Program-made: the position numbers and the translations under genes
In this document: positions 129-63,138 of the stretch, in pieces
How positions within the stretch are numbered: position 1 is the stretch's first letter
How the letters are laid out: each line of letters begins with the position of its first letter
Source of the DNA: Rufibacter sp. LB8
GTDB taxonomy: Bacteria > Bacteroidota > Bacteroidia > Cytophagales > Hymenobacteraceae
Direction: 5' to 3'
DNA length: 64,000 nt
Assembly (NCBI RefSeq): GCF_014876185.1
Contig: NZ_JADALJ010000001.1
Coordinates: 1,841,501 to 1,905,500, forward strand
Notes under the pieces: model-generated
What the model saw: the letters and a program-made list of their open reading frames with translations, nothing else
Told to the model about the DNA's origin: nothing
Database searches by the model: none

Positions 129-170
129 TGCGTTTTCGGGCTCATTTCTGAAAATGAGCCCGAAAACGCA
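129..170. repeat. Palindromic element, copy 1
   Basis: Near-perfect palindrome with outer ends TGCG and CGCA. It lies 25 nt beyond the stop codon of the minus-strand thioesterase. Confidence 0.9.
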
Positions 171-195
171 CGCACCTTAGGTCAAATTTAAACGC

Positions 196-708
196 TTACT
201 TGGCGAGTTTCATCTCGTCGCGCAGCTGCTTTACGCGGTCTTCAAACAAGGCGGGCGTTTCTTCCTTCACCACCACTTCGTCAAAGAGTTGCATGAGTTC
301 AGGCTCGTGCTGGGCGCGCTCACTTTTGCGCACGTCTATGTATACAAACTTGGTCCAGAGAATGGCTTTGAGTTTCTGCCTGTGCTCGTCTAACATAATG
401 TGTTCCACCAACATGCTGGTGTCGCTCACCTGCCTGATGCTGGTCCTGATGGTCACTAGTTCCCGCACGCGGGCGGGCTGCAGGTACACAATCTGGTTCT
501 GGCCCACCACCCAGGCGCGGCCGGTCTTCCGAAAGAACGCATGAATGTCCAGCCCGTAGGCTTCCTCCACCTGGTCTTCGCGCTCATTCTGGAAATAATT
601 GAGAAACGCGCTGTTGTTCAAATGCCCGAAGGGGTCGCAATGGTCAAACCTGATGCGGGTCTGGCTTTCCAGCACGGCTGGCTTGGGAGTATTGGTCTGG
701 TCTGTCAT
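196..708 (-). CDS. Acyl-CoA thioesterase, hotdog fold
   Basis: The 170-residue protein has the 4-hydroxybenzoyl-CoA thioesterase signature, with RFDHCDPFGHLNNS near residue 20 and the following FLNYFQNERED. Members hydrolyse cytosolic acyl-CoA thioesters; the substrate cannot be read from the sequence. The Asp in DPFGHLNN corresponds to the usual catalytic acid of the family. I chose the ATG at 708 (MTDQTN); an in-frame ATG at 744 would add 12 residues unlike family N-termini. It is transcribed in the same direction as the two-component genes upstream but is separated from them by palindromic copy 2. Confidence 0.8.
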   Translation of the reverse strand: MTDQTNTPKPAVLESQTRIRFDHCDPFGHLNNSAFLNYFQNEREDQVEEAYGLDIHAFFRKTGRAWVVGQNQIVYLQPARVRELVTIRTSIRQVSDTSMLVEHIMLDEHRQKLKAILWTKFVYIDVRKSERAQHEPELMQLFDEVVVKEETPALFEDRVKQLRDEMKLAK

Positions 709-790
709 AGTTATGTCGATTGCATGGAGCCTAAAATTGGGCAAAAAACCGGACCTAGCCTAGCAAACCGCGCGTCTTGCCTGGGCAAAC

Positions 791-830
791 CCGTTTTCGG
801 GCTCATTTCCAGAAATGAGCCCGAAAACGG
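791..830. repeat. Palindromic element, copy 2
   Basis: Canonical copy with CCGTTTTCGGGCTCATTTC arms and a CAGA-type centre. It starts 15 nt beyond the LytTR regulator stop codon. Confidence 0.95.
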
Positions 831-845
831 AACACCCAGGTTCCT

Positions 846-1544
846 TCAAATGCTTTTCTGGTGGAGCCACCGCAGCACGTCCTCTTTGTATTGCCGGCCC
901 AACGGAATCTCTTTCTGGCCCACGGTCACCTGCTCGGCGGTAAAACTCTGCACGTGCGCCAGGTTGATGATAAAGGACTTCTGCACCCGCAGAAATTGGT
1001 GGGCGGGCAGTTTCTCCTCCAGATACGTCAGGCTGTAATAACCCACCAGTTCACGGCTGGTGGTTTTGATTTTGACGTAGTTGCGAAGGCTTTCCAGGTA
1101 CTCAATATCAGCCACGTTCACTTTCACCATGGCCTTGTCAATCTTAAGGTAAAGAAAAGTTTCTGGCTCCGCCGATGGTTTGCTAGATTTTCCCACAACT
1201 TTAGCCACCGCCTTGGCCAGCCGCTCAAACGACACCGGTTTTACCAGATAATCCACGGCGTCATGCTCAAACCCCTGCAGCGCGAATTCTCGGTGCGCGG
1301 TGGTGAAAATCAGGTTGGTAGAGGATTTCAGGAACGGCGCCAACTCAAAACCGGTGAGCCCGGGCATGGTGATGTCAAGAAAAAGCACATCGGGCGCGGG
1401 TTGGGTCTGCAGGAAGTGCAGGGCCTGAAAAGGATCATCAAACGAAGCCAACATGTGCACGTGCGGTAACTTTCCCAAATGCGTTTTGAGCACCTCCAGG
1501 GCTAGGGGCTCGTCATCTACCAATACACAGGTCAAAAGTTTCAT
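846..1544 (-). CDS. LytTR-family response regulator
   Basis: This 232-residue regulator has an N-terminal receiver domain (about residues 4-115) with acidic residues DDE at 10-12, the phosphoacceptor Asp57 in FLDITMPG, and the conserved Lys in YLVKPVS. The C-terminal half is a LytTR DNA-binding domain (about 130-230) with the typical sequence YLESLRNYVKI. Its start overlaps the stop of the upstream kinase gene by 4 nt (ATGA), so the two are translationally coupled and form a two-component system. Targets are not evident; no LytTR-type direct repeat was recognised nearby. Confidence 0.92.
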   Translation of the reverse strand: MKLLTCVLVDDEPLALEVLKTHLGKLPHVHMLASFDDPFQALHFLQTQPAPDVLFLDITMPGLTGFELAPFLKSSTNLIFTTAHREFALQGFEHDAVDYLVKPVSFERLAKAVAKVVGKSSKPSAEPETFLYLKIDKAMVKVNVADIEYLESLRNYVKIKTTSRELVGYYSLTYLEEKLPAHQFLRVQKSFIINLAHVQSFTAEQVTVGQKEIPLGRQYKEDVLRWLHQKSI

Positions 1545-2575
1545 GCCAATGGGAGTTGAAGGGTGGCCAAATAGGTGTCTGTTTTCTGGGTTTTCAGGAC
1601 GAAGGATCTGGGATAAAGCAGTTCTAACCGCTTGCGCAGATTGGTGAGTCCCACGCCGGAGGCAAATATTTTCTCTTCAATAGTATAAGCAGGCAAGTCG
1701 TTTTCCACGGTGAAGGTCAATCTGTTCTGCTGTACCTGGGCATTCAACCGTACCCAAGCCTTGCCCAACCGGTTTCCGTGTTTAAACGCATTTTCCACCA
1801 GCGGCAACAGCAGCAATGGAGCCACTTTCTGCTGCGGCTCCATTCCTACTCCGTAGATTGAAATTGTCACTTTCTCGCCCAGGCGCAACTTTTCCAGGGC
1901 CACGTAGTGTTGCACCATTTCCCACTCTTTCTGCAAGGGCACCAGGTCCTGCTCGCAGTCATAGGTCATGTAACTCAACACTTCAGAGAGGCGCAACACC
2001 GTCTCCGGCGCCTGCTCCGATTGGCTCAGCGTGAGCGCGTACAGATTGTTAAGCGTGTTGAACAGAAAATGGGGCTGCAGCTGTTTTTTGAGGTTCTGCA
2101 ATTCGGCCTCGGCTTTCTCCCGGGCCAACCGTTCGGTTTTCACCTGCGTGGCCAGCCAATCTTTGACCAGATAAAGAGAAATACCCAAACCCACCACGGG
2201 GTACACGTAAATCAAATTCAGGAAAGCGGCCTTCACATCCCAAAAGGTATGCGCGGCCAAGGCACTGGGGTGCGCGGTGATGGGTTGTACCGGCAATAAG
2301 TAAAAATCCTCCAATCGGTTCAGAAACGTCACCGCCAGCACATACACCGGCACCGCCACCGCCAAAGCCGCGTAGTTCCGGCGGGCCAACAACTGCTTGA
2401 TTAGCACGAACACCGCCACGTAAAAGGCCACCATTTTCAAAGGCAGTTCCAGCAATTCCATCTGCACCCTGAACCACAGATCACCGGGATACAGCTGGAA
2501 AAACGCCACCCGCACAGCCAAGTACAATAGCCATCCGGCGGCGTGCCACAAAATCTCAGTTCTGGTGAAGTGCAT
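1541..2575 (-). CDS. LytS/YehU-type sensor histidine kinase
   Basis: The 344-residue kinase has four predicted membrane helices in the first 140 residues, a short coiled coil (about 145-165), then the His_kinase motif QLQPHFLFNTLNN with the phosphoacceptor His at about 169. A C-terminal HATPase domain follows with the N-box LPLVENAFKHG and a GVGLTNLRKRL G-box. It would phosphorylate the adjacent LytTR regulator. The start is the ATG at 2575; six bases further upstream there is only a TTG. The -7 box at 2579-2586 ends just before this ATG, which predicts a leaderless mRNA. Confidence 0.9.
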   Translation of the reverse strand: MHFTRTEILWHAAGWLLYLAVRVAFFQLYPGDLWFRVQMELLELPLKMVAFYVAVFVLIKQLLARRNYAALAVAVPVYVLAVTFLNRLEDFYLLPVQPITAHPSALAAHTFWDVKAAFLNLIYVYPVVGLGISLYLVKDWLATQVKTERLAREKAEAELQNLKKQLQPHFLFNTLNNLYALTLSQSEQAPETVLRLSEVLSYMTYDCEQDLVPLQKEWEMVQHYVALEKLRLGEKVTISIYGVGMEPQQKVAPLLLLPLVENAFKHGNRLGKAWVRLNAQVQQNRLTFTVENDLPAYTIEEKIFASGVGLTNLRKRLELLYPRSFVLKTQKTDTYLATLQLPLA

Positions 2576-2578
2576 GGG

Positions 2579-2608
2579 CAAATATAAATGACTTTAGCGG
2601 CTTACAAA
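2579..2608 (-). promoter_or_regulatory. Bacteroidota-type promoter of the kinase operon
   Basis: Reading the minus strand, TTTG lies at 2608-2605 and TATATTTG at 2586-2579 with an 18-nt spacer. This matches the Bacteroidota consensus TTTG-N(17-23)-TAnnTTTG. The inferred transcription start is within a base or two of the ATG at 2575. Confidence 0.65.
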
Positions 2609-2714
2609 GAGCGCTTGCTCCGTGGTTTGGCCGGGTTCATACCAGAAAAAGCGTTTTGTGTCCGGCCCTTGCCACGTTTGGGATAAATTACCAGCGCCCC
2701 GGCGATAATTCAAA

Positions 2715-2722
2715 TATGTTTG
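2715..2722 (+). promoter_or_regulatory. -7 promoter box before the 2Fe-2S subunit gene
   Basis: TATGTTTG matches TAnnTTTG and ends 4 nt before the ATG at 2727. No TTTG is seen at the right -33 distance, so support is partial. Confidence 0.45.
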
Positions 2723-2726
2723 GGCT

Positions 2727-3197
2727 ATGGTGTATGTAGTTCAGATCAATCAAAAAACCTATCGGCTGGATGTGGAGGCCGACATGCCGCTGCTCTGGGC
2801 ACTGCGTGATTTCGCGCACCTGAAAGGCACCAAGTACGGTTGCGGCAAAGGTCTCTGCGGCGCCTGCACGGTACTGCTGGACGGGCAGGCGGTGCGCTCC
2901 TGCTCCATGCCCGTGGCGGGTGTGGGCAACCGGGCCATCACCACCATTGAAGGCCTTAGGCCCACCGGAGACCACCCACTGCAGAAAAGCTGGGAAACCT
3001 GCAGCGTGCCCCAATGTGGCTACTGCCAGGCGGGCCAGATCATGACGGCCTGCGCCTTTCTGCAGGAAAACCCCTCGCCCACGGAAGATGAGATCAAACA
3101 AGCCATGAGCCGAAATCTCTGCCGCTGTGGCACCTACCTGCGGATCAGGAAAGCCGTGAAAATGGCCTCAGAGGAACTCAACGCTACCAAACCATGA
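2727..3197 (+). CDS. 2Fe-2S subunit of a molybdenum hydroxylase (IorA-like)
   Basis: The 156-residue protein carries the electron-transfer subunit fold of the xanthine oxidase family. The plant-type 2Fe-2S cluster ligands are Cys39, Cys44, Cys47 and Cys59; the second cluster ligands are Cys97, Cys100, Cys132 and Cys134 (QCGYCQAGQ and NLCRCGTY). It passes electrons from the molybdopterin subunit encoded next, whose ATG overlaps this stop codon. Length and motifs match the isoquinoline 1-oxidoreductase alpha type, but the substrate cannot be assigned. Its start follows a -7 box so closely that a leaderless transcript is possible. Confidence 0.92.
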   Translation: MVYVVQINQKTYRLDVEADMPLLWALRDFAHLKGTKYGCGKGLCGACTVLLDGQAVRSCSMPVAGVGNRAITTIEGLRPTGDHPLQKSWETCSVPQCGYCQAGQIMTACAFLQENPSPTEDEIKQAMSRNLCRCGTYLRIRKAVKMASEELNATKP

Positions 3198-5410
3198 AAA
3201 GACGAGATTTTATCAGGGCCTCCACGCTGGCGGGCGGCGGCATGCTGTTGCACGCCAACACCTGGGCCAGTTTGCTTTCTCCGGCGGCCGCTAAAAAGAT
3301 GGACCGCGAAGTGAACCATGTTTTTGCCTTGAATGCCTTCCTGAAAATCACGTCGCAGAACCAGGTGTTGTTCCAGGTCAGCAAGCACGAAATGGGCCAG
3401 GGCATTGCCACCGGCATGGCCATGATTCTGGCCGAGGAACTGGACGCCGACTGGGAAAAGGTGCAGGTAGAATTCATTGACGCCGACCTCAAAGTTTTCC
3501 AGAACAATGACATGGGCGGCATGAGCGCGGGCGGCAGCACCACCATCATGGACATGTGGCTGATTTTGCGCCGCATGGGAGCCACCGCCCGGCAACTGCT
3601 GGTGCGGGCCGCCGTGCAGGAATGGAGCATTGCGCCAGAGAAAATCAAAACGCAGAACGGCATCCTCACCAACACACTAACCGGTGCCCAACTCACCTAC
3701 GGCCAACTAGCCGACAAAGCCGCGCTGCTGCCCCTGCCCGCCACGGTGCCGCTTAAAAAAGAAACTGATTTCCAGTTGGTAGGCCAACCGTTGCCCAACA
3801 AAATCACGGCGCAGGTGGCAACGGGCACCTACAAATATGGCATTGATGTGGAAGTGCCCGGTATGCTGTACGCCTTAGTGGCCCGCTGTCCGGTGCATCT
3901 GGGCAAACTTGAAAAATATGACGCCAGCAAAGCGCTCAAAATCAAAGGCGTGCGCCACGTAGTCACCACCACCGCCATTGCCGGGGCCAAACCCAACGGT
4001 TTCTTCAGCGTGCGCGAGGGTGTGGCCGTGGTAGCCGATTCTTTCTGGGCCGCCAAAAAAGGCCGGGACGCCCTGATTCTTGATTGGGATTTGGGCCCAC
4101 ACGGCAATCGCTCTTTGCAGGACTTTGAGAAAACGGTGCAGGAGAAAAGCACGCGCCAGAGCCAGCCCACGGGCTTTGTGGGCAATGCGCACGCCTTCGC
4201 AGATTTGCAGCAGAATGATCGTATCCTGAGCGCCGAATATGTGTACCCGCACCAGTTGCACGCATCGCTGGAAACCCTCAACTGTACTGCCCACCACCAG
4301 GGCGACAGCTGCGAGATTTGGGTGGGCACCCAGGCGCCGCCCATGATGATCCGCGAAGTGGCCGCTTATTTCAAACTACCCCAGGACCAGGTGAAAATCC
4401 ACACGCTTCCCTCGGGTGGTGGGTTTGGCCGAAGGTATTACCCAGACCCGGCGCTGGAGGCGGTACATATCTCCAAAATGGCGGGGAACATCCCCATCAA
4501 AATGCTCTGGACCCGCGCAGATGATTTCCAGCACAATTTCTGGCACTGCTATTCCTTTAGCCGCTACCAGGCAGGCCTCACCGCCGATAAAAAATTGAAC
4601 GCGTGGTATTTCAAGGAACTCCGGAGCTATACCTGGGGCGCGGCCTTCCCGTTCAGGCCCGAGATTTCGTGGAACGGGTATGCCATCCCCAACAAACGGT
4701 TTGACTTTGAGACCATTCAGGACGACAGCCCGGTGCAGTCCTGTGCGTGGCGCTCGGTGATTGCCAATGCCTGGGGCTTTGGGCAGGAATGTTTTCTGGA
4801 TGAAATAGCCGCGTTTGTGGGCAAAGACCCCTACGTGCTCAGACAAGAACTGCTGCAGGAAAACCGCGAAGAAAAAGTCGGGCACCAGTTTCCGCTCAGT
4901 TCCAAACGGCTTAGGCAAGTGATGGAATTGGCGGTGAGTAAATCTACCTGGCACCAGAAACGTGAAAAAGGCAAAGGCGTTGGGTTGGCGGTGTACCCCT
5001 ACCTGCACGGCAACAGTTACTGCGCCCAGGTGGCTGAAGTGACCGTGACCAACGGCCAGCTTTCCGTTGACAAAATGGTGGTGGCCGTGGATTGCGGGCG
5101 CGTGGTGAACCCAGATCTGGTCAAGGCGCAGATAGAAGGCGGCATTGTCTGGGCGCTCACGGCTCTGCTCTACGGCGGCATGGAATTGGAGAAGGGCCGG
5201 GCGTTGCGCAGCAATTTTCATGACAACAAACTGCTCACCAATGCTGAATGCCCTGAGGTTGAGGTGCATTTTGTGTCTTCTGAAGATGGTCCGTTTGGGA
5301 TTGGGGAACTCTCGCCGCCCAGCGCGGTGCCGGCCATTGTGAACGCCATTTACAACGCCACCGGCAAACGCATCAGAAAATTACCTTTGGCCAAAGACAG
5401 CCTGGTGTAG
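3194..5410 (+). CDS. Molybdopterin-binding subunit, xanthine oxidase family (IorB-like)
   Basis: This 738-residue catalytic subunit begins with a Tat-like leader (KRRDFIRAST followed by a hydrophobic stretch to about residue 30), suggesting export with the cofactor already inserted. Family features include GQGIATGMAMILAEELD near 65, GGGFGRRYYPDP near 410, and the near-C-terminal GIGELSPPSAVPAIVNAI, where the catalytic Glu of the family resides. It overlaps the 2Fe-2S gene by 4 nt and is followed by a cytochrome c, a common arrangement for periplasmic aldehyde or N-heterocycle hydroxylases of the IorAB type. Substrate unknown. Confidence 0.9.
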   Translation: MKRRDFIRASTLAGGGMLLHANTWASLLSPAAAKKMDREVNHVFALNAFLKITSQNQVLFQVSKHEMGQGIATGMAMILAEELDADWEKVQVEFIDADLKVFQNNDMGGMSAGGSTTIMDMWLILRRMGATARQLLVRAAVQEWSIAPEKIKTQNGILTNTLTGAQLTYGQLADKAALLPLPATVPLKKETDFQLVGQPLPNKITAQVATGTYKYGIDVEVPGMLYALVARCPVHLGKLEKYDASKALKIKGVRHVVTTTAIAGAKPNGFFSVREGVAVVADSFWAAKKGRDALILDWDLGPHGNRSLQDFEKTVQEKSTRQSQPTGFVGNAHAFADLQQNDRILSAEYVYPHQLHASLETLNCTAHHQGDSCEIWVGTQAPPMMIREVAAYFKLPQDQVKIHTLPSGGGFGRRYYPDPALEAVHISKMAGNIPIKMLWTRADDFQHNFWHCYSFSRYQAGLTADKKLNAWYFKELRSYTWGAAFPFRPEISWNGYAIPNKRFDFETIQDDSPVQSCAWRSVIANAWGFGQECFLDEIAAFVGKDPYVLRQELLQENREEKVGHQFPLSSKRLRQVMELAVSKSTWHQKREKGKGVGLAVYPYLHGNSYCAQVAEVTVTNGQLSVDKMVVAVDCGRVVNPDLVKAQIEGGIVWALTALLYGGMELEKGRALRSNFHDNKLLTNAECPEVEVHFVSSEDGPFGIGELSPPSAVPAIVNAIYNATGKRIRKLPLAKDSLV

Positions 5411-5477
5411 GAAATCCGTGAATTGAAAACCGGTGATAACTTCTTCCATTTCGGGCTGCGGCCAAAAATTTAAATTG

Positions 5478-5517
5478 CCGTTTTGGGGCTCATTTTCAGA
5501 AATGAGCCCCAAATCCG
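5478..5517. repeat. Palindromic element, copy 3
   Basis: Variant with TTTTGGGGCTC on the left and GAGCCCCAAA on the right, so the G-for-C change is matched in both arms. It sits between the molybdenum subunit and the cytochrome gene. Confidence 0.85.
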
Positions 5518-5535
5518 AAAAACCATTTCCACAAG

Positions 5536-5934: not shown

Positions 5935-5936
5935 AT

Positions 5937-5980
5937 TTCCGTTTTCGGGCTCATTTCCAGAAATGAGCCCGAAAACGGAA
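5937..5980. repeat. Palindromic element, copy 4
   Basis: Canonical copy with arms extended to TTCC and GGAA. It starts 2 nt after the cytochrome stop codon, in the convergent gap with the chromate-type transporter. Confidence 0.95.
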
Positions 5981-7444: not shown

Positions 7445-7484
7445 CCGTTTTGGGGCTCATTTCTGGAAATGAGCCCGAAAACGG
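7445..7484. repeat. Palindromic element, copy 5
   Basis: Arms are TTTTGGGGCTC and GAGCCCGAAAAC, leaving one G:C to G:A type mismatch. It ends 4 nt from the stop codon of the minus-strand unknown gene. Confidence 0.93.
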
Positions 7485-7488
7485 CTTT

Positions 7489-8764: not shown

Positions 8765-8805
8765 CCGTTTTCGGGCTCATTTCCGGAAATGAGCCCGAAA
8801 ACAGG
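8765..8805. repeat. Palindromic element, copy 6
   Basis: Canonical core with a CCGG centre, giving a fully symmetrical middle. It lies in the divergent gap upstream of blaI. Confidence 0.93.
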
Positions 8806-13830: not shown

Positions 13831-13892
13831 AAGCCGTCTTCCCGTTTTGGGGCTCATTTCTGAAAATGAGCCCCAAAACGGGAAGACGGCTT
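13831..13892. repeat. Palindromic element, copy 7, with extended arms
   Basis: The usual core (with TTTTGGGGCTC matched by GAGCCCCAAAAC) is extended outward by a further perfectly paired AAGCCGTCTTC / GAAGACGGCTT. The result is a roughly 29-bp stem with a 4-nt centre. It follows the receptor stop codon by 25 nt and may double as its transcription terminator. Confidence 0.95.
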
Positions 13893-14022: not shown

Positions 14023-14074
14023 AAATTTCCGTTTTCGGGCTCATTTCTGAAAATGAGCCCGAAAACGGAAATTT
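14023..14074. repeat. Palindromic element, copy 8
   Basis: Canonical core extended to AAATTTCCG and CGGAAATTT. It lies 32 nt beyond the stop of the minus-strand PAS kinase. Confidence 0.95.
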
Positions 14075-16510: not shown

Positions 16511-16553
16511 CCGTTTTCAGCTCCGTTTCTGGAAATGAGCCCGAAAACAGGAA
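16511..16553. repeat. Palindromic element, copy 9 (decayed)
   Basis: The left arm has CAGCTCCGTTTC in place of CGGGCTCATTTC; the right arm is intact. It ends 2 nt from the stop codon of the minus-strand YihY gene. Confidence 0.8.
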
Positions 16554-17917: not shown

Positions 17918-17968
17918 AATTCCTGTTTTCGGCTTCATTTCCAGAAATGAGCCCGAAAACAGGAATTT
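17918..17968. repeat. Palindromic element, copy 10
   Basis: CCTG/CAGG-ended subtype with flanks AAATT and AATTT. It ends 3 nt from the MltG stop codon, between MltG and the thioesterase. Confidence 0.93.
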
Positions 17969-19079: not shown

Positions 19080-19386
19080 TTAATGACTGAATGAGTGAAC
19101 GCATGAAGGCGTGAATGCTGAAAATGCGCCGGAAGGAATGACCAGATGCGTGAAGGTTTGAAGTTGGCTGCTCTTTCCTTTCAGTGATTGCCCCTTGGCA
19201 TTTCCGTACCTCATCCATATCGTTTTCCGGCTCAATTACAGAAACGAGGCCGAAAACGGAAAATTTGATTTGCGCGTAAGCAAAAGCGAGTGCTTTTTGT
19301 TCGTTCTTTGACGCCAACTTACAACTTAAGTTAAAACATAAGCACCTTCACTCATTCGCTCATTCAAAAACTCACCCCTAATCCCC
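19080..19386. other. Intergenic region mltG-tsaC with short repeats
   Basis: About 310 nt without a gene. TGAATGAGTGAACGCATGA-type sequence near 19087 recurs inverted near 19349 (CACTCATTCGCTCATTC), so the region is framed by a loose inverted repeat. It contains decayed palindromic copy 11. Confidence 0.5.
19221..19258. repeat. Palindromic element, copy 11 (decayed)
   Basis: CGTTTTCCGGCTC on the left and GAGGCCGAAAACG on the right remain recognisable, with several arm mismatches. It lies in a divergent gap. Confidence 0.7.
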
Positions 19387-20035: not shown

Positions 20036-20077
20036 TGCGTTTTTGGCTTCGTTTCTAAAAATGAGCCCGAAAACGCA
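20036..20077. repeat. Palindromic element, copy 12
   Basis: TGCG/CGCA-ended copy with a decayed left arm (TTTTTGGCTTCG). It is flanked by CTGAGTCTGA and GACTCAGGA. It fills the convergent gap and ends 4 nt from the acyltransferase stop codon. Confidence 0.85.
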
Positions 20078-22258: not shown

Positions 22259-22297
22259 CCGTTTTTGGGCTCTGATCTGCAAATGAAGGCAAAACCG
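22259..22297. repeat. Palindromic element, copy 13 (decayed)
   Basis: CCGTTTTTGGGCTC is retained on the left; the right arm is degraded to GAAGGCAAAACCG. Confidence 0.65.
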
Positions 22298-22302
22298 AGA
22301 CC

Positions 22303-22437: not shown

Positions 22438-22479
22438 CCTATTTTCGGCTTTATTTGCAAAATAGAGCCTAGAAACGGG
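22438..22479. repeat. Palindromic element, copy 14 (decayed)
   Basis: CCTATTTTCGGCTTTATTT on the left against AAATAGAGCCTAGAAACGGG on the right, with several mismatches to the consensus. Confidence 0.6.
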
Positions 22480-22740: not shown

Positions 22741-22780
22741 TCAGTTTCGCCTCCATTTCCAGTTTAGAGCCCGAAAACGC
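22741..22780. repeat. Palindromic element, copy 15 (decayed)
   Basis: The right arm GAGCCCGAAAACGC is intact; the left is degraded to CAGTTTCGCCTCCATTTCC. Confidence 0.6.
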
Positions 22781-26528: not shown

Positions 26529-26547
26529 GCGTTACGTATCAATTTTG

Positions 26548-26578
26548 AAAAGGCTGACAGACAAACTGTCAGCCTTTT
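26548..26578 (+). terminator. clpC terminator
   Basis: A 13-bp perfect hairpin (AAAAGGCTGACAG / CTGTCAGCCTTTT) with a 5-nt loop ends in a T-run. It lies 20 nt after the clpC stop codon and directly precedes a palindromic element. Confidence 0.9.
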
Positions 26579-26620
26579 CTGTTTTTGGCCTCGTTTCTGA
26601 AAATGAGCCCCAAAACAGAA
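26577..26620. repeat. Palindromic element, copy 16
   Basis: TTCTG/CAGAA-ended subtype. It overlaps the last bases of the clpC terminator. Confidence 0.88.
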
Positions 26621-26718: not shown

Positions 26719-26759
26719 CCCGTTTTAGGCTCCATTTCCAGAAACGAGCCCGAAAACGG
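26719..26759. repeat. Palindromic element, copy 17
   Basis: CCGTTTTAGGCTCC on the left and GAGCCCGAAAACGG on the right, partly decayed. It lies in the 397-nt gap before the carboxylase gene, which otherwise shows nothing recognisable. Confidence 0.82.
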
Positions 26760-29667: not shown

Positions 29668-29706
29668 CCGTTTTCGGGCTCATTTCAAGAAATGAGCCCG
29701 AAAACA
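29668..29706. repeat. Palindromic element, copy 18
   Basis: It begins at the first base after the M42 peptidase stop codon. Canonical arms with a TCAAGA centre. Confidence 0.92.
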
Positions 29707-29714
29707 GAAAAATA

Positions 29715-32603: not shown

Positions 32604-32645
32604 TCCGTTTTCGGGCTCGTTTCTGAAAATGAGCCCGAAAACGGA
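32604..32645. repeat. Palindromic element, copy 19
   Basis: TCCG/CGGA-ended copy with one change (CTCGTTTC). It sits 15 nt beyond the aroA stop codon, between it and the terminator. Confidence 0.93.
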
Positions 32646-32660: not shown

Positions 32661-33893
32661 TTACATTATTGTAAAACCAGCTTTCTCCAGTTCAACCCAA
32701 TACCGTGGGTACGACTTCCGGACGACGCGGGGTTCTTCTATGAGTACCGGCTGCTTTAACCCCAACGGTGCGAAGGCCATGGCCATGCGGTGGTCTTCAT
32801 AGGTGTGTACTTGGGGTTCGTTTTTGGGCTCTGTTTTCAGAATGAGGGCAAAAACGTCTGGCTCAGTTTCTACCAGTTCGGAACCGAATTTTTGCACCTC
32901 AGCCTGCAGGGCGGCAATGCGGTCGGTTTCTTTGATTCTGAGGCTTTCCAGCCCGGTCATTTCAAAGGGCACGCGCAGGCTGGCACCCAAGGCCACCACA
33001 GTCTGGGCCAGGTCTGGGCAAGCCGAAAAATCTATTCTGTCTATCTTGTCTTGCAGCGGTTGTTTGGTCAGGCGCACGCCGGTGTCAGAAAATTCGGTCT
33101 TCACGCCAAACGGGGCCATGAGCGTGGGCAATACGCTGTCGCCTTGTAAAGAGGTGGACCGAAGGCCGGGCAGGAAAACATCGGCTTCCTGGGCCAGGGC
33201 CACCATGCTGTACCAGTAACTGGCCGCCGACCAATCTGACTCCACAGTAAATTCCCGCGGTTGGTATTGCTGCGGTGGCACTGAGATGAGGTTGCCTTCA
33301 AACGTGGCCTGCACGCCAAAATGCGCCATTTGCGCGAGCGTCATTCTAATGTAAGGCTCTGAACTAATTTTTCCCTCCAGCGTCAATTGCAGCCCTTGCG
33401 GCAACAGCGGCCCAATCATAAGCAACGCCGAAATATACTGGCTGCTGATATCTGACCTGATGGAAAGTTGGTTGGTGCCCGTTCCGGTGAACCCGTTCAT
33501 TTGCAGCGGCGGGTAGCCTTCCTGGCCCAGATAATCAATGTCGGCACCCAAGGTCCGGAGGGCATCTACCAGCACACCAATGGGCCGTTGGCACATACGG
33601 GGCGTGCCGGTGAGTTTGAGTTTCTGGCTGGTGGCGGCGTAATAGGCAGTCAAAAAACGCATGACGGTGCCGGCATCTTCGGCGCTTACCTCTGGCCCGG
33701 CAGGGCTGGAAAGCAAGCGGTTCAACAGTTGAGTATCATTAGCGTCTGAGAGGTTGTGAATGGGGAAATTGTGGCCAGACAAAGCCCTGATGATCAACGC
33801 GCGGTTGGCTTCACTTTTAGAGGCGGGCAATTGAAACGTTCCGCGCAACACACCGGTGGGGTGTGACACGCGCACGGCAGCAGCAGATATCAT
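32661..33893 (-). CDS. aroA: 3-phosphoshikimate 1-carboxyvinyltransferase
   Basis: The 410-residue EPSP synthase makes 5-enolpyruvylshikimate-3-phosphate from shikimate-3-phosphate and PEP. Visible are GTFQLPASKSEANRALIIRAL at the start, DAGTVMRFLTAYYA, the RPIGVLVDALRTLGADI region, a SSQYISALLM segment, RIKETDRIAAL and TYEDHRMAMAFA. It overlaps aroB by 4 nt (ATGA). Just before the DHRMAM motif, residues about 346-358 (FALILKTEPKNE) are encoded by a decayed palindromic element, so this surface loop may differ from relatives. Confidence 0.95.
   Translation of the reverse strand: MISAAAVRVSHPTGVLRGTFQLPASKSEANRALIIRALSGHNFPIHNLSDANDTQLLNRLLSSPAGPEVSAEDAGTVMRFLTAYYAATSQKLKLTGTPRMCQRPIGVLVDALRTLGADIDYLGQEGYPPLQMNGFTGTGTNQLSIRSDISSQYISALLMIGPLLPQGLQLTLEGKISSEPYIRMTLAQMAHFGVQATFEGNLISVPPQQYQPREFTVESDWSAASYWYSMVALAQEADVFLPGLRSTSLQGDSVLPTLMAPFGVKTEFSDTGVRLTKQPLQDKIDRIDFSACPDLAQTVVALGASLRVPFEMTGLESLRIKETDRIAALQAEVQKFGSELVETEPDVFALILKTEPKNEPQVHTYEDHRMAMAFAPLGLKQPVLIEEPRVVRKSYPRYWVELEKAGFTIM
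32819..32856. repeat. Palindromic element, copy 20, inside aroA
   Basis: CGTTTTTGGGCTC on the left and GAGGGCAAAAACG on the right, partly decayed. It is wholly within the aroA reading frame and in phase. Confidence 0.7.
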
Positions 33894-34935: not shown

Positions 34936-34985
34936 TCTGGGGTTTCGTTTTTGGCTCCGCTTTCAGAAATGAGCCCGAAAACAGG
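34936..34985. repeat. Palindromic element, copy 21, at the aroB 5' end
   Basis: On the minus strand CCTGTTTTCGGGCTCATTTC pairs with the decayed GCGGAGCCAAAAACG. It ends 5 nt before the proposed TTG start of aroB. Confidence 0.82.
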
Positions 34986-37363: not shown

Positions 37364-37413
37364 AATTTCCGTTTTAGGGCTCGTTTCTGAAAATGAGCCC
37401 TAAAACGGAAATT
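37364..37413. repeat. Palindromic element, copy 22
   Basis: Carries TTTTAGGGCTC on one arm and GAGCCCTAAAAC on the other, a perfectly compensated C-to-A change. Arms extend to AATTTCCG and CGGAAATT. It lies in the convergent gap between GH5 and DAHP synthase. Confidence 0.95.
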
Positions 37414-38607: not shown

Positions 38608-38647
38608 CCGTTTTCGGGCTCATTTCCGTAAACGAAGCCAAAAACAA
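38608..38647. repeat. Palindromic element, copy 23 (partly decayed)
   Basis: CCGTTTTCGGGCTCATTTCC on the left, GAAGCCAAAAACAA on the right. It lies in a divergent gap, next to the proline dehydrogenase promoter. Confidence 0.75.
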
Positions 38648-39908: not shown

Positions 39909-39953
39909 TTCCGTTTTCGGCTTCATTTTCAGAAATGAGCCCTAAAACGGAAA
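39909..39953. repeat. Palindromic element, copy 24
   Basis: TTTCCG/CGGAAA-ended copy with CGGCTTC against GAGCCCTAA. It lies 21 nt after the proline dehydrogenase stop codon. Confidence 0.9.
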
Positions 39954-42971: not shown

Positions 42972-43019
42972 ATTTCCGTTTTCGGGCTCATTTCCAGAAA
43001 TGAGCCCGAAAACGGAAAA
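42972..43019. repeat. Palindromic element, copy 25
   Basis: Canonical copy extended to ATTTCCG and CGGAAAAT. It ends 10 nt from the stop codon of the minus-strand TonB gene. Confidence 0.95.
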
Positions 43020-46440: not shown

Positions 46441-46480
46441 TCTGTTTTCGGGCTCATTTGCAGAAACGAGCCCGAAAACC
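46441..46480. repeat. Palindromic element, copy 26
   Basis: TCTGTTTTCGGGCTCATTTG on the left and AAACGAGCCCGAAAACCGA on the right, with small mismatches. Confidence 0.88.
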
Positions 46481-46490
46481 GAAATCGGGG

Positions 46491-46591: not shown

Positions 46592-46638
46592 ATTCCTGTT
46601 TTCGGGCTCATTTCTGGAAATGAGCCCGAAAACAGAAT
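46592..46638. repeat. Palindromic element, copy 27
   Basis: ATTCCTG/CAGAAT-ended subtype with canonical core and TGGA centre. Confidence 0.93.
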
Positions 46639-49659: not shown

Positions 49660-49705
49660 TTTCTGTTTTCGGGCTCAATTCTGGAAATGAGCCCGAAAAC
49701 AGAAA
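49660..49705. repeat. Palindromic element, copy 28
   Basis: TTTCTG/CAGAAA-ended subtype with one arm mismatch (CTCAATTC). It ends 8 nt from the stop codon at 49714. Confidence 0.93.
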
Positions 49706-53280: not shown

Positions 53281-53324
53281 TTCCGTTTTGGGGCTCATTT
53301 TTGGAAACGAAGCCAAAAACGGAA
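53281..53324. repeat. Palindromic element, copy 29
   Basis: TTCCGTTTTGGGGCTC on the left and GAAGCCAAAAACGGAA on the right, partly decayed. It lies in a divergent gap 36 nt before the rlmD promoter box. Confidence 0.88.
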
Positions 53325-54829: not shown

Positions 54830-54868
54830 CCGTTTTCGGCCTCATTTTCAGAAATGAAGCCGAAAACG
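54830..54868. repeat. Palindromic element, copy 30
   Basis: CCGTTTTCGGCCTC on the left matched to GAAGCCGAAAACGC on the right. It lies 38 nt after the rlmD stop codon and just before a -7 box. Confidence 0.88.
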
Positions 54869-54878
54869 CATCTAAATT

Positions 54879-56599: not shown

Positions 56600-56653
56600 A
56601 CAATTCCCGTTTTCGGGCTCAATTTCAGAATTGAGCCCGAAAACGGGAATTGT
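56600..56653. repeat. Palindromic element, copy 31
   Basis: Extended arms (ACAATTCCCG and CGGGAATTGT) plus compensated CTCAATTT / AATTGAG change. It ends 12 nt from the stop codon of the minus-strand membrane protein and lies next to the AT-rich cassette edge. Confidence 0.95.
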
Positions 56654-56665
56654 CACACCAAATCT

Positions 56666-57956: not shown

Positions 57957-58144
57957 AATTTGTAGTGTTGCGGTGATTATTTTGCTAAAAATGCTGCCTG
58001 TCAACCTAATTCGGCTTATTTTTAGAAAAATTGCCCTGTACAGGAATCAGCCACGAAGATACGGTTTTCTGAGTCGTTCGCCATGGGCCGCTTTCTTATA
58101 GGGCCGAGATAAAACTTTTTCTTGCTAACAGGTGTTAGCTTTTG

Positions 58145-58152
58145 TAGATTTG
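58145..58152 (+). promoter_or_regulatory. -7 promoter box of the TetR/paa operon
   Basis: TAGATTTG matches TAnnTTTG and ends 18 nt before the ATG at 58171. It would give a leader of about 14 nt. Confidence 0.45.
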
Positions 58153-58170
58153 GATATTAATAGTAATTGT

Positions 58171-58737: not shown

Positions 58738-58758
58738 AGCTTTTTAAATCAAAAGATT

Positions 58759-59742
58759 ATGTACGGAGGAGGAAACGTTTTTGAAGCCACCAAGTTTGAC
58801 GAAGCAGTACAGGAAGACCCTATTCTGCTCGCCGAGTTTGAAGCCCGTATAGCCCGCGGCGAAAAGATTGAGCCCACCGACTGGATGCCGCAACTCTACC
58901 GCAAGCAATTGACCCGCATGATTGAGCAGCACGCCCACTCAGAAATCATTGGTGCTCTTCCAGAAGGAACCTGGATTACCCGTGCCCCCGGCTTCCGTCG
59001 CAAACTGGCCCAAATGGCCAAAGTGCAGGACGAAGTAGGCCACGCGCAACTCCTGTACAGCGCCGCTGAAACCCTGGGCAAAACCCGTGAGCAAATGCTC
59101 ACTGATTTAATCAATGGCAAAAGCAAATACTCCAACGTTTTTAACTACCCGGCTTTCACCTGGGCAGACTCCAATATTATCTCCTGGCTGATTGACGCCG
59201 GCGCCATTGTAAACCAAATGGCCAACGCCAAAGGCAGCTATGGCCCCTACTGTCGCGCCCTGGACCGCATCTGCGCCGAGGAAGCCTTTCACTTGAAATA
59301 CGGTCATGACGCTGTGGTACACATGGCTACGGGCTCGCCTATCCAACGCAAAATGATTCAGGAAGCGCTCAACCGGTGGTGGCCCCCTATCATGACCTTC
59401 TTCGGGCCTAGTGACAAGATGAGCACGCACACGGAAACCCTGATGCGCTGGAAAGTAAAAATGGCGACCAATGATGCCTGCCGCCAGCAATTCTTAGACA
59501 TGTACGTGCCTAAAATCTGGGAACTGGGCTTGACCGTTCCAGACGCCAAACTCCACAAAAACGAGCAAGGCGTGTGGGAATATACTGAACCAGACTGGGA
59601 CGAATTCAAACGCGTAATTAACGGTGACGGCCCTTGCAACGCAGAACGCCTCGCTGTGCGCCGCACCGCCGAGGAACGCGGTGCCTGGGTGCGCAGAGCC
59701 TTGCTGTCGCCAAAGGCAAGTTATGTGAGACCATTGGCGTAA
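58759..59742 (+). CDS. paaA: 1,2-phenylacetyl-CoA epoxidase subunit PaaA
   Basis: The 327-residue catalytic subunit of the multicomponent ring epoxidase has a ferritin-like diiron domain. Candidate iron ligands lie in segments such as [12 protein letters not shown] (E, H) and [14 protein letters not shown] (E-E-x-x-H). Together with PaaB, PaaC, PaaD and the reductase PaaE it forms the enzyme that opens aerobic phenylacetate degradation. It follows the TetR gene by 21 nt. Confidence 0.95.
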
Positions 59743-59767
59743 AGCCGCTATTCACCATCTCCTCCCT

Positions 59768-59860
59768 TTGTCATCCTGAAAGAACCTTGTGAGCAATTTG
59801 TAGCAGCTTTTACTAAGCGCTTTTCTAGCTTGTTCACAAAGTCCTTTCAGGATGACAAAA
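59768..59860. repeat. Long inverted repeat with TCATCCTGAAAG arms
   Basis: Left arm 59768-59797 and right arm 59831-59860 are 30 nt each with about four mismatches; the loop is 33 nt. The ends read TTTGTCATCCTGAAAG and its complement. A related half-site occurs at 23071-23090. Confidence 0.88.
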
Positions 59861-59966
59861 TGAGGTATCAAAAGGAGAATTGAGTAAAGGGAAAGAGGAT
59901 AAAATTACTCGCAATCCCGGTCCGCCCTTTACCGCTTAATTACCAAACAAACCATTCCACCTCTTC

Positions 59967-60001
59967 TGACTCAGAACTCCAGACTCAGAACTCAGAACTC
60001 A
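59967..60001. repeat. Short direct repeats
   Basis: CAGAACTC occurs three times in 35 nt just before paaB (with intervening CAGACT). It resembles simple dispersed repeats of Bacteroidota. Confidence 0.6.
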
Positions 60002-60006
60002 ACAAA

Positions 60007-60633
60007 ATGTCTCAAGACGCTGACCACATTCAATCGCTGGACCCACGGGTAACTCGGTTACACATAGAGGAAGAACCCAATCCTTCGCCTAAACCGGCTT
60101 TGGACCAGTTGGAGAACTATGAAGTTTTTCATCAGAAAAAAGAAGGTTCTGCTTATACGTATGTGGGGCCAGTGCATGCGGCCAATGAGGAGATTGCGTT
60201 TTTGTATGGCAAAGAGCAGTATAGCCGCCGCGCCATGTGTTCGGGTATGTGGGTGGCCAAAACGCAGCATATTTTTGTTTCCGGCTACGCCGATGATAAC
60301 ACTTCTGTGTATGACTCGCTGCCAACTTTAGAGACCTTGCCTGAGACTCCGGAACAGCCCTATGAGTTTTTCCATTTGAAGAAACGCGGCAAAGCGCACC
60401 AACACGCCGGCACCATTCTGGCGCGGTCAGTGGAACATGCGTTGGAAGTTGCCAAGCAAACCTTGAACGTGCCGCCCGTGGTGAATGTGTGGGTAGTCGC
60501 CAGCGAGCATGTGCTTCGCGAAGAGGAAGATAAAGACATCTGGGCCACCACGCCCGAGAAAAAGTACCGTGAGGCCATGGCCTACCGTGTACAGGACAAG
60601 ATTGACCGCTTCAAAGCCGAACAGAAAGCCTAA
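60007..60633 (+). CDS. paaB: 1,2-phenylacetyl-CoA epoxidase subunit PaaB, with duplicated domain
   Basis: The 208-residue protein contains two PaaB-like domains: residues about 33-98 (YEVFHQKKEGSAYTYVGPVHAANEE) and about 118-180 (YEFFHLKKRGKAHQHAGTILARSVEHALE). E. coli PaaB is about 95 residues with a single domain, so this is about twice as long. A tandem duplication is inferred. PaaB is a structural subunit that bridges PaaA/PaaC. It precedes paaC by 4 nt. Confidence 0.92.
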   Translation: MSQDADHIQSLDPRVTRLHIEEEPNPSPKPALDQLENYEVFHQKKEGSAYTYVGPVHAANEEIAFLYGKEQYSRRAMCSGMWVAKTQHIFVSGYADDNTSVYDSLPTLETLPETPEQPYEFFHLKKRGKAHQHAGTILARSVEHALEVAKQTLNVPPVVNVWVVASEHVLREEEDKDIWATTPEKKYREAMAYRVQDKIDRFKAEQKA

Positions 60634-60637
60634 GACC

Positions 60638-61393
60638 ATGCAAGACCTCGCGTTAAAAGACCTGCTCTACAAAATAGCCGACGACCAACTGATTCTGGGC
60701 CACCGCAACTCTGAATGGACGGGCATGGGCCCTATGCTGGAAGAAGACATCGCGTTTTCCTCCATGGCGCAGGACAAATTAGGTCATAGTTTAGCGTTTT
60801 ATTCCCTACTGCATGAATTAGGCGAAGGCGAACCCGACACCGTAGCCTTCATGCGCAACGCCGACCAATTCCATAATTGCCAATTGGTAGAATTGCCCAT
60901 CGGCGAATATGATTTCAGCTTGATTCGGCACTTCTTGTTTGACAATGCCGAAGTGTTACGGTTTGAGGCCTTGAGCCAGTCCAGTTATGAAGGCATTGCT
61001 AAAATCGCCACCAAACTCAAAGGCGAAGTGAAATACCACGTTCTCCATGGCAATACGCTGGTGAAACAACTTGGCTCTGCCACCCAGGAAAGCATCAGCC
61101 GTTTACAAGATTCTTTGGAATACGCGTTGCCGTTTGCCTTGGGTATTTTTGAGCCATCAACATACGAGCAGGAATTGATTGACACTGGTGTTTACATCGG
61201 CGAAGCCGCGCTGCAAGCCCAGTGGGAAGAGCGTATTGCTACCGTTCTGGCCAAAACCAGCCTGAAACTGCCAGATTTACGCAGCCTCACGCCGGTGTAT
61301 GGTGGTCGCTATGGCCAGCACACAGAACACCTGCAACCGCTGTTAGATGAAATGGCCGAAGTCTTCAAGATTGACCCCACCGCTGAGTGGTAA
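60638..61393 (+). CDS. paaC: 1,2-phenylacetyl-CoA epoxidase subunit PaaC
   Basis: The 251-residue non-catalytic ferritin-like partner of PaaA begins MQDLALKDLLYKIADDQLILGHRNSEWTG, with LGHSLAFYSLLHELGE following. It lacks the full diiron set typical of PaaA. It starts at ATG 60638, 4 nt after the paaB stop codon. The frame is open upstream through paaB, which I exclude. It stabilises the PaaA/PaaC heterodimer. Confidence 0.94.
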   Translation: MQDLALKDLLYKIADDQLILGHRNSEWTGMGPMLEEDIAFSSMAQDKLGHSLAFYSLLHELGEGEPDTVAFMRNADQFHNCQLVELPIGEYDFSLIRHFLFDNAEVLRFEALSQSSYEGIAKIATKLKGEVKYHVLHGNTLVKQLGSATQESISRLQDSLEYALPFALGIFEPSTYEQELIDTGVYIGEAALQAQWEERIATVLAKTSLKLPDLRSLTPVYGGRYGQHTEHLQPLLDEMAEVFKIDPTAEW

Positions 61394-61416
61394 ATAAGTA
61401 TTAAGGCGATTCTTGG

Positions 61417-61462
61417 TTTCCGTTTTCGGGCTCGTTTTCAGAAATGAGCCCGAAAACGGAAA
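61417..61462. repeat. Palindromic element, copy 32
   Basis: TTTCCG/CGGAAA-ended copy between paaC and paaD, 23 nt after the paaC stop codon and inside the operon. One arm change is CTCGTTTTC. Confidence 0.93.
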
Positions 61463-61571
61463 TTCTATTTCGGGGAAGCCTTTATTTAGGTGGGCTTTCA
61501 ACTTTTAAGCTTGGTTTTAGGTTACGTATAAACAAAGCAGCTGCATAACAAACTGTAAAACAACGGACACC

Positions 61572-62057
61572 ATGTACACGCAAGACCAAATTCGCGCTTT
61601 CCTGGATGAGGTGAAAGACCCCGAGATTCCGGTGCTGTCTTTGAATGACCTGGGCGTGATCACGGGCATTAACGTTGCGCCAGAAACGCAGCATGTAACG
61701 GTGCGCATGACTCCTACGTTTGCAGGGTGTCCGGCCATGGAATACATGCGGGCAGAAGTGGAACAGGCCTTGCAGCGGCACGGTGTGCAGGAATTTACGG
61801 TGACCATGAGTTTTGACGAACCCTGGAACTCCAATAAAATCAGTGAGAAAGGCCGCAAGGCGCTAAAGGAGTTCGGGCTGGCGCCGCCGCAGCCGTACCA
61901 GGGCATTCTGGATTTAGATATTCTGGAATACGCTGAATGCCCCAACTGTAATAGCCTGAACACGGAGATGCGAACGCCCTTCGGCCCTACGCTCTGCCGT
62001 TCCATGCACTTCTGCCATGACTGCCGGCAGTTATTTGAACAGTTCAAGCCTTTATAA
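61572..62057 (+). CDS. paaD: 1,2-phenylacetyl-CoA epoxidase subunit PaaD
   Basis: The 161-residue MIP18/DUF59-family protein opens IRAFLDEVKDPEIPVLSLNDLGVI. It carries the TPTFAGCPAMEYM motif whose Cys is typical of Fe-S assembly factors, then a C-terminal zinc-ribbon-like region (CPNCNS, and CHDC). PaaD is thought to help mature or assemble the epoxidase, perhaps the Fe-S cluster of PaaE. No paaE follows in this window. The lipoprotein gene comes 5 nt later. Confidence 0.93.
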   Translation: MYTQDQIRAFLDEVKDPEIPVLSLNDLGVITGINVAPETQHVTVRMTPTFAGCPAMEYMRAEVEQALQRHGVQEFTVTMSFDEPWNSNKISEKGRKALKEFGLAPPQPYQGILDLDILEYAECPNCNSLNTEMRTPFGPTLCRSMHFCHDCRQLFEQFKPL

Positions 62058-62062
62058 ACACT

Positions 62063-62692
62063 ATGAAAAATAAATTTTTCTTTGGCGCCCTTTTAGTGCT
62101 GGTCACGTTTCTGGCCGGGTGCTCCAAAGACTCCGGACGGTCTGGCCCGCTGGCGCGCCCCATCTCCAATGAACAACTCAAAACCGAACTGACCATTCTC
62201 ACCGACACGCTCACCGGCAAATGGAACGTGATGATGGACTCTGACAGCCTCAAAATAAAGCAGATGGAAGATTTGTTGGCCGCGCTTCCGCCCGCCGTGG
62301 TTGCCGCCCAGCAGCGCGCCGACCTGCAGAAAGCCATTAGGCGGTTGCCTACTTTGCGTTATGACCGCAACACGGTGCGCGTCTCAGACAGAATTGACGC
62401 CTATGACCTGGCCCATGAATCCGTGTGGAATGCCATAAAAGCCTTTTTGCCCACAGACGGCCCCACCGGCGACCTACGCGTAGATTCCCTGCAGCAAAGC
62501 ATACAAGCCCATCACAGCGAAGTCATTTTTTACCGCGGCCGCTATGACAAAACTGCTAAGGAAATCAACACGCTCCTTCGCCGCTACAAAAAACAGATCC
62601 CCAAATTAGGCAAGCCTTATGACACGCTGCAGCCCATGCCGCTGTTCCAATGGGTAGATAAATCGGCCGCATCCCAAACCAACGAGGAATAA
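62063..62692 (+). CDS. Uncharacterised lipoprotein downstream of paaD
   Basis: The 209-residue protein has a lipobox (MKNKFFFGALLVLVTFLAGC), so it is probably lipid-anchored. The rest is helix-rich and ends RYDKTAKEINTLLRRYKKQIPKLGKPYD, weakly like the C-terminal helix of LemA proteins, but not clearly a member. It starts 5 nt after paaD, suggesting co-transcription, though a role in phenylacetate degradation is not evident. Function unknown. Confidence 0.78.
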   Translation: MKNKFFFGALLVLVTFLAGCSKDSGRSGPLARPISNEQLKTELTILTDTLTGKWNVMMDSDSLKIKQMEDLLAALPPAVVAAQQRADLQKAIRRLPTLRYDRNTVRVSDRIDAYDLAHESVWNAIKAFLPTDGPTGDLRVDSLQQSIQAHHSEVIFYRGRYDKTAKEINTLLRRYKKQIPKLGKPYDTLQPMPLFQWVDKSAASQTNEE

Positions 62693-62708
62693 GAATAGCA
62701 GTGGAAAG

Positions 62709-62749
62709 TGCGTTTTAGGATTCATTTCTGAAAACGAGCCCGAAAACGG
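62709..62749. repeat. Palindromic element, copy 33 (partly decayed)
   Basis: TGCGTTTTAGGATTCATTTC on the left against AAACGAGCCCGAAAACGGA on the right. It lies 16 nt after the lipoprotein stop codon. Confidence 0.82.
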
Positions 62750-62770
62750 AAAAGCCTTAAGAAAGGGTGC

Positions 62771-62923
62771 GCATTTCGTCCCCCTTTGAAGGGGGTTGGG
62801 GGATGATTTTATAGGAGATAATTAATTCCAGCTTCTTTTCCGCTTTGTTTTTCTAAGCTTAGGCTAATGGTTTTCAGGCTGACTTTATCATCCCCCTACC
62901 CCCTTCAAAGGGGGACGAAATGC
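62771..62923. repeat. Large GC-rich inverted repeat
   Basis: Arms of 36 nt (62771-62806 and 62888-62923) differ at one position and flank an 81-nt spacer without a gene. Each arm contains CCCCCTTTGAAGGGGG, itself a small palindrome. The layout is like a miniature inverted-repeat element. Confidence 0.9.
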
Positions 62924-63097
62924 GTCAAACAAAGGAATGTGTTGAGTTCTATACGCCATTTCAAGGCTCGGTTATATAACACCCCGTAGCAGAGCTACGC
63001 TCGCTGACTCAAGCGCACGTTTGGGTAATCCTCAAGGGGGAAATCTGCCAGTAGAAAGTGTACAACAAGACTCAGGCCTGATTCCAGAAAAGTAAAT

Positions 63098-63138
63098 CCT
63101 GTTTTCGGCTTCATTTCTGAAAATGAGCCCGAAAACAG
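63098..63138. repeat. Palindromic element, copy 34
   Basis: CCTGTTTTCGGCTTC on the left and GAGCCCGAAAACAG on the right. It lies downstream of the M3 peptidase gene, just past its terminator. Confidence 0.9.

Follow-up and report, generated by a model that had tools for sequence, protein, structure and literature searches.

A near-palindromic DNA element of about 40 bp recurs along a 64,000-nucleotide stretch of the Rufibacter sp. LB8 genome (the window, meaning this stretch at its full length), and related copies are spread over the genomes of other Rufibacter species. The arm sequence of the element demonstrably follows the species rather than the site. Shared sites, about one copy per intergenic region, and a species-specific spelling over up to about 2,000 places together call for genome-wide coevolution with a reader or for some homogenizing mechanism. 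The reading that we favor, with a probability of about 0.42, is that the elements are DNA-level border marks that may serve as binding sites for a putative dimeric DNA-binding protein between transcription units.

A 40-mer profile trained on 464 kb of the genome that holds the window (G000; other G-numbers denote Rufibacter relatives, C1 and C2 the main and second contigs of G000, and L-numbers the DNA stretches read) finds 34 copies in the window, four of them weak (scores 24.8–31.9). The same count had been given in the original prediction, an earlier note made from the letters of the window. When the arm is searched with up to three mismatches, the window yields 51 matches, compared to 0.01 expected in shuffles. 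The 464 kb contain 213 profile copies, and none is found after the sequence is shuffled or reversed. Across 784 kb of main-contig sequence the count is 341 copies, which extrapolates to about 2,060 per genome, and a genome-wide search with a degenerate pattern (up to three mismatches) recovers 1,770 copies in G000 and none with a backward control. The register is fixed at an 18-nt arm, a 2-nt center, and a second 18-nt arm, with a G000 consensus of roughly AATTTCCGTTTTCGGGCTCATTTC, then the center, then the mirror arm. The center, described originally as 2–4 nt long, measures 2 nt and reads CA or TG in 171 of 212 G000 copies. Sequence outside the consensus is near random. Matches to the arm are almost always paired (615 paired, 5 lone, with 3 in the control), indicating that both arms are needed. 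Two-fold symmetry, fixed spacing, and base-level conservation, the features expected of a binding site for a dimeric protein, are all present. An Rfam scan of the window at the gathering threshold returned a transfer RNA gene (RF00005; 16269–16353, minus strand) alone, and no described RNA family at the elements.

The placement of the copies was evaluated against genes called by a hexamer-based script, for which start positions are approximate and the gene set is incomplete. In the window, 19 of the 34 copies lie within 40 nt downstream of a called stop codon, in agreement with the earlier estimate of about twenty. The accompanying statement that copies are mostly found just after stop codons holds by a narrow majority, given that eight copies are in divergent gaps and one is inside a called gene. 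The 341 copies from 784 kb are distributed among convergent (99), tandem (158), and divergent (49) gaps, called genes (15), and the edges of the stretches (20), and the last two groups were set aside for a test of distance to stops. Among the 257 stop-adjacent copies, 134 are within 40 nt of the stop, compared to 90 ± 6 when positions are drawn at random in the same intergenic regions, so the nonrandom placement proposed originally was borne out by this shuffled-position check. Similarly, 67 copies are within 10 nt of a stop (38.7 ± 4.5 with random placement), and the 30 nt upstream of starts are avoided (20 of 207 copies, 43 ± 5 expected).

A pattern stronger than proximity to stops is the presence of about one element per intergenic region. 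When regions of 100–600 nt were compared to a random model that throws elements by region length only, fewer empty and fewer multiply occupied regions than expected were counted in all 15 genome-by-context rows, with several of these differences within noise. For example, among tandem regions of G000, 67 are empty (92.5 ± 3.8 expected) and 14 carry two or more elements (27.8 ± 2.8 expected). Across five genomes, an element is present in 60–73% of the regions that measure 100 nt or more. Convergent regions of this size are occupied in 59/74, 20/26, 23/26, 28/29, and 27/29 cases in the five genomes, or 157/184 in total. A few stretches, namely L053 (C1:3400001–3420000), L129, L131, and L055, carry only 0–5 elements per 20 kb and are possible recent islands; the last of these has 37% GC.

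All 16 Rufibacter genomes searched carry the element, with 182–1,902 copies each at up to three mismatches and none in the control. Among 193 other genomes of the order, searched with up to two mismatches, two contain a single match each, and in genomes from five further genera within the family (80 kb each) profile matches are about as frequent as in the reversed control. The degenerate pattern has an exact match in just one stretch of an IMG/VR viral contig (L223 1275–1310; IMGVR_UViG_2839759663_000002), and one 61-base query had no match among PLSDB plasmids. Cross-species comparisons used one 40–60 kb region for each of seven relatives and 260 kb for each of four. Where the relatives are orthologous to the window, all seven carry the element in identical register. 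The arms are spelled differently, and the eight species comprise five genomes with a tighter dialect and three with a diffuse one (G002, G007, and G015). The arm dialect is CGTTTTTGGCCTGTTTTC in G013 and G009, CGTTTAGGGGCTGTTTTT in G003, and TGTTTTAGGCCTGTTTTC in G006. A copy exactly in the G000 dialect resides within another species (G001:C1:455180–455215), where it was perhaps transferred.

The clearest shared site follows a gene for an M42 peptidase. In the window this is copy 18 (29668–29707, score 62.7), which begins immediately past the stop codon, and in all 11 Rufibacter species read an element begins within 3 nt of this stop. Eight of these loci were scored and range from 18.5 to 44.3, the lowest being that of G015, which overlaps the stop by one base; the other three (G002, G003, and G007) come from the orthologous-region comparison. 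At the corresponding locus in 22 loci of other genera, the best profile score is below 0 in all. Likewise, all 8 species compared have an element 8–24 nt behind the proline dehydrogenase gene; in the window this is copy 24 (39911–39950, score 61.3), 23 nt past the stop. The sites of copies 9 (16511–16550, score 54.7) and 10 (17923–17962, score 62.0) are common to 7 of the 8 species compared. For a broader test, 27 gene ends with at least three orthologs were examined, and two sites were counted as the same when their distances agreed within 6 nt. Nine of the 18 G000 copies at these ends match the site of a relative (3.7 in permuted data, p 0.0016), with 29 species matches compared to 8.2 after permutation. 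Because the other nine are unshared, there must also be considerable turnover at this evolutionary distance.

Even at shared sites, the spelling is that of the host. When each copy was itself left out and G013 and G009 were counted as one dialect, the nearest dialect was that of the same species for 32 of 35 shared-site copies in the five tighter-dialect genomes, and the three misses are all from G006. Copies at the same site in G000 and its relatives are 0.58–0.70 identical, compared to 0.59–0.67 for random copies and 0.85 within G000. Close pairs of species give a different result, with same-site copies more alike than others in both G013/G009 (0.84 versus 0.76) and G002/G007 (0.76 versus 0.56), so the copies have been inherited vertically. 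In these pairs, 83 of 87 and 95 of 99 occupied intergenic regions, respectively, are shared (95–96%).

The same two sister pairs reveal which positions are retained. Identity between G013 and G009 is 0.823 in elements, 0.613 at fourfold sites, and 0.60 in noncoding flanks; the respective values for G002 and G007 are 0.742, 0.707, and 0.675. Within the element there is a skeleton of T/A tracts, with TT toward the outer end and TTT toward the center, and its mirror image in the other arm. These tract positions are identical at 0.928 (G013/G009) and 0.935 (G002/G007), compared to 0.786 and 0.673 at the remaining positions, the latter value being the flank level. Since the T/A positions are highly conserved in both pairs, the symmetric skeleton is what both keep, and the rest of the arm follows the dialect or, in the diffuse pair G002/G007, drifts. 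Copies in divergent gaps are conserved as well as others, with identities of 0.836 (n = 14), compared to 0.817 for tandem and 0.827 for convergent copies in G013/G009, and 0.794 (n = 16), compared to 0.741 and 0.701 in G002/G007.

A function at the level of DNA is favored because divergent copies are equally conserved, G-U and A-C mismatches on the sense strand do not differ, folding is symmetric between strands in four of five genomes, and poorly paired sites in G002 and G007 are kept. If the elements are border marks, the symmetric T/A-tract skeleton would be the contact surface for the putative dimer, and a change in the specificity of this protein would drag the arm sequence along throughout the genome to create the dialects. 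The job of the complex might be to insulate or pin DNA where transcription of neighboring genes meets, for instance as a supercoil barrier, a roadblock, or a nucleoid anchor. The elements probably go back to an insertion burst in the common Rufibacter ancestor, after which selection would have retained them. A more ambitious version, which we regard as rather doubtful, is a boundary code in which one symmetric element per large-enough intergenic region, including nearly every convergent one, is read by a dedicated putative protein, and in which hundreds to about 2,000 sites per species are rewritten in concert while many positions stay fixed. Extragenic palindromes are usually viewed as selfish repeats with opportunistic roles. 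If the boundary code were true, these elements would instead represent a chromosome-wide, coevolving protein-DNA recognition system that insulates transcription units.

Several observations weigh against a site of this kind. A length of 38 bp is long for one dimer, and profile-based detection favors conserved positions, although almost every region scores in each sister. When the two members of a pair have both changed between sister species, pairing is retained in 43 of 57 cases at inner positions, compared to 16 of 26 at outer positions and 31 of 59 in flanks, and this coevolution of the arms exceeds the need of independent half-sites. An earlier view from G000 alone, in which the match rate at variable inner pairs does not exceed that of shuffled ones, had suggested that these pairs vary independently, and it was dropped in light of the compensatory changes in sister pairs. 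Outer positions (z up to 7.5) and flanks pair above the shuffled level, and 18 of 210 copies have at least five extra flank pairs (3.4 expected). Furthermore, the center of tandem G000 copies reads CA 80 times and TG 41 times on the sense strand, a transcription-related bias not expected of a symmetric site. The bias is not seen in G013 (11:15) and is weaker in G009 (19:11), and within G000 CA:TG also varies with GC skew (47:31 versus 82:105). CA-oriented G000 copies carry more G-U than A-C mismatches (321:197), with the opposite lean in G013 (74:105) and G009 (60:78). A purely symmetric protein site does not explain these signs of pairing, and a hairpin step or template switching may contribute.

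Some of these same observations would be expected if the transcribed palindrome folds at mRNA 3′ ends, where it could protect the message, end transcription, or stall ribosomes near the stop. This RNA-level explanation, which encompasses the roles in transcript ending, decay, and tail processing raised originally, is also in keeping with the crowding of copies within 10 nt of stops and with the strong hairpins predicted for G000 (mean –16.2 kcal/mol, compared to –5.7 for shuffled sequences), as well as with the compensatory changes and the CA excess relative to transcription. Moreover, ribosomes are stalled by E. coli repetitive extragenic palindromic (REP) sequences that lie no more than 15 nt from a stop, according to the portion of the source considered here (PMC12306157). 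We nonetheless judge it improbable, because the strand-specific signals of RNA folding are largely lacking. On the sense strand of tandem copies, G-U and A-C mismatches number 177/165 in G000 and 64/68, 57/49, 140/115, and 126/107 in the other four genomes, with no significant difference in any, and the sense and antisense strands have indistinguishable folding energies in four of the five; the fifth, G002, favors the sense strand (p 0.04). Selection for a sense-strand RNA hairpin was rejected on these grounds. Only 14% of G002 copies and 13% of G007 copies retain at least 14 of 18 pairs, though their sites are kept, and the 49 divergent-gap copies of G000 belong to a class that is conserved equally well in the sister pairs. 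There is also no downstream U-tract (n = 182; T fraction 0.341 before and 0.305 after the element, with 43 runs of four T within 12 nt after it and 40 before). Canonical terminators are about equally common with an element (24/109 and 50/124) and without one (39/125 and 25/50), the differences not being significant. Thus, the proposed RNA roles find little support. The compensatory changes would also be accommodated by a DNA cruciform, formed under negative supercoiling as a topological buffer that needs no sequence-specific reader, and inverted complementarity does continue into the flanks (22 non-palindromic 4-mers versus 6.1 expected). Any palindrome would serve for this purpose, however, which leaves the dialects and the sequence-specific T/A skeleton unexplained, and the variable inner pairs of G000 behave as described above. 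A cruciform is accordingly the least probable of the explanations considered.

The remaining alternative, put forward originally as a REP- or miniature inverted-repeat transposable element (MITE)-like origin, is that a transposase spreads the palindrome and that successive master copies give rise to the species variants. This would account for the high copy number, the species-specific families, the nearly genus-only distribution, and the avoidance of the 30 nt before starts. An "orthoswitch" of REP classes has been described in Pseudomonas in the part of PMC3686654 considered here; it is the closest published idea, and site conservation across classes is not described in that part. We consider such mobility unlikely, if somewhat less so than RNA folding. 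As in REPs, the copies are palindromic, extragenic, and numerous (15 of 341 in 784 kb are in called genes). The tags GTAG and CGTC are found at the element edge in 15/338 and 14/338 cases, compared to 22.0 ± 4.5 and 31.6 ± 5.6 in shuffled flanks. Clustered dimers are lacking, with 4 of 305 neighbors closer than 100 nt (7.9 expected) and 22 closer than 200 nt (20.5 expected). Non-palindromic direct 4-mers that could be target duplications number 5 (3.6 ± 1.7 expected), although old duplications could have decayed. An apparent AATT duplication (19 versus 7.2) was rejected, since it stems from the palindromic consensus (13 of the 19 are AATT) and is gone for non-palindromic words. The shared occupancy of 95–96% in sister species means that sites persist too well for an element that is actively moving, and neither the underdispersion to about one copy per region nor the hardly colonized second contig fits with continuing spread. 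Mobile ancestry dating to the base of the genus stays conceivable.

The search for a mobilizing enzyme led to the same assessment. The original remark that the window holds no transposase gene was supported by the suggested check for a REP-associated tyrosine transposase (RAYT), in that the six matches to the Y1 transposase family (Pfam PF01797) in G000 are all outside the window; the check was confined to this family. In G013 there is no PF01797 match, and yet a tight element family is kept. Around 44 of the 45 Y1 matches, which were examined, there are 84 copies, or 1.9 per 3.2 kb, compared to 1.55–2.12 around other genes of 450–700 nt. For the 34 Y1 loci with a called gene, elements are found within 300 nt on both sides in 7, on one side in 15, and on neither in 12; the values for 110 other G000 genes are 20, 52, and 38. 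A RAYT/REPtron origin had seemed attractive when three G000 Y1 loci first looked enriched (9 copies, P 0.003), and this candidate was rejected when the signal disappeared with five loci in equal windows (9 copies versus 7.8 expected, P 0.36). The densest Y1 locus, L027 of G011, has seven elements in 3.2 kb. Near a Y1 transposase gene of G004 there are two copies of a different palindrome (L022 2193–2230 and 2386–2423), possibly a genuine REP/RAYT pair of this genus. In the parts of the genome that were read, no transposase carrying this arm at its ends was seen; an insertion sequence of that kind in one or two copies elsewhere would have been missed.

By the features tested, the element family is not REP, MITE, uptake signal, or terminator. 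Like REPs and bacterial interspersed mosaic elements (BIMEs), to the extent that these are described in the part of PMC3733652 considered here, the Rufibacter elements are short extragenic palindromes with hundreds to thousands of copies and species-specific families, some near stops. Unlike them, they lack the GTAG/CGTC tag, the RAYT association, and clustered dimers, have a longer stem, occupy sites common across species despite different arms, and occur about once per intergenic region. The two inverted arms, short length, and absence of coding capacity recall MITEs with terminal inverted repeats, from which the elements differ by having neither an interior nor a target duplication. The DNA uptake sequences of Neisseria occur in thousands of copies, have species dialects, and sometimes form inverted pairs behind genes; they are short motifs that also occur singly and inside genes. 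The Rufibacter elements share the high copy number and the dialects, whereas their unit is about 38 bp, is almost wholly intergenic, and nearly never appears as a lone arm, and for this last reason an uptake signal was rejected. Intrinsic terminators also form hairpins frequently behind stops and between convergent genes, but the Rufibacter elements lack a U-tract, occupy divergent gaps, and stand beside ordinary terminators. Searches of the open-licence PubMed Central (PMC) literature turned up nothing relevant, judging by titles and the start of abstracts, on Rufibacter palindromes, Hymenobacter REPs, or concerted evolution of extragenic palindromes.

Although intrinsic termination was rejected for the class, a few copies sit in larger terminator-like hairpins. 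Copy 16 (26579–26618, score 56.3), whose site is common to 6 of 8 species, abuts a terminator-like hairpin (26547–26579), and within 26547–26618 the outer arm of this copy contributes part of the T-run of the hairpin. A similar hairpin-then-element arrangement is present at another gene in G013 and G009. Copy 7 (13842–13881, score 62.3) occupies the loop of a larger locus-specific hairpin (13831–13892) with 11 extra flank pairs. The same configuration, again with 11 extra flank pairs, is found for an element at about position 9393 of L048, and there the element is followed by a T-rich stretch, resembling an intrinsic terminator split by the element.

The second contig, C2 (155,127 bases), provides a contrast to the main contig. 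In the 80 kb read (L113–L116), the G000 profile finds 5 copies and a genus profile finds 6, of which four are nearest to the G013 dialect, one to that of G003, and one is tied, all by small margins. None is uniquely nearest to the G000 dialect, compared to 303 of 340 copies on the main contig. It looks as if the DNA of C2 came from another Rufibacter, possibly as an imported replicon, and was not rewritten. With so few copies on C2, the elements seem not to colonize new DNA quickly. The dialect could act as an ancestry tag for transferred DNA.

The other copies in the window are given here without strand and with profile scores in parentheses. Two lie 4 nt past a stop, namely copy 4 at 5939–5978 (68.8) and copy 5, behind a gene on the minus strand, at 7445–7484 (66.3). 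Divergent gaps hold copies 6 at 8765–8804 (66.9), 11 at 19220–19259 (48.5), 21 at 34945–34984 (44.8), 23 at 38608–38647 (51.9), and 29 at 53283–53322 (58.8), and convergent gaps hold copies 12 at 20037–20076 (56.8) and 25 at 42976–43015 (68.8). The weak copies are 13 at 22259–22298 (31.9), 14 at 22439–22478 (28.9), 15 at 22741–22780 (24.8), and 20, an element-like sequence within a called gene, at 32818–32857 (30.6). In the first half of the window there are also copies 1 at 130–169 (63.0), 2 at 791–830 (68.8), 3 at 5478–5517 (50.9), 8 at 14029–14068 (67.4), and 17 at 26720–26759 (57.5). The second half includes copies 19 at 32605–32644 (65.3), 22 at 37369–37408 (58.4), 26 at 46442–46481 (54.0), 27 at 46596–46635 (64.7), 28 at 49663–49702 (61.3), 30 at 54830–54869 (61.6), 31 at 56607–56646 (60.5), 32 at 61420–61459 (65.3), 33 at 62710–62749 (51.4), and 34 at 63099–63138 (60.6).

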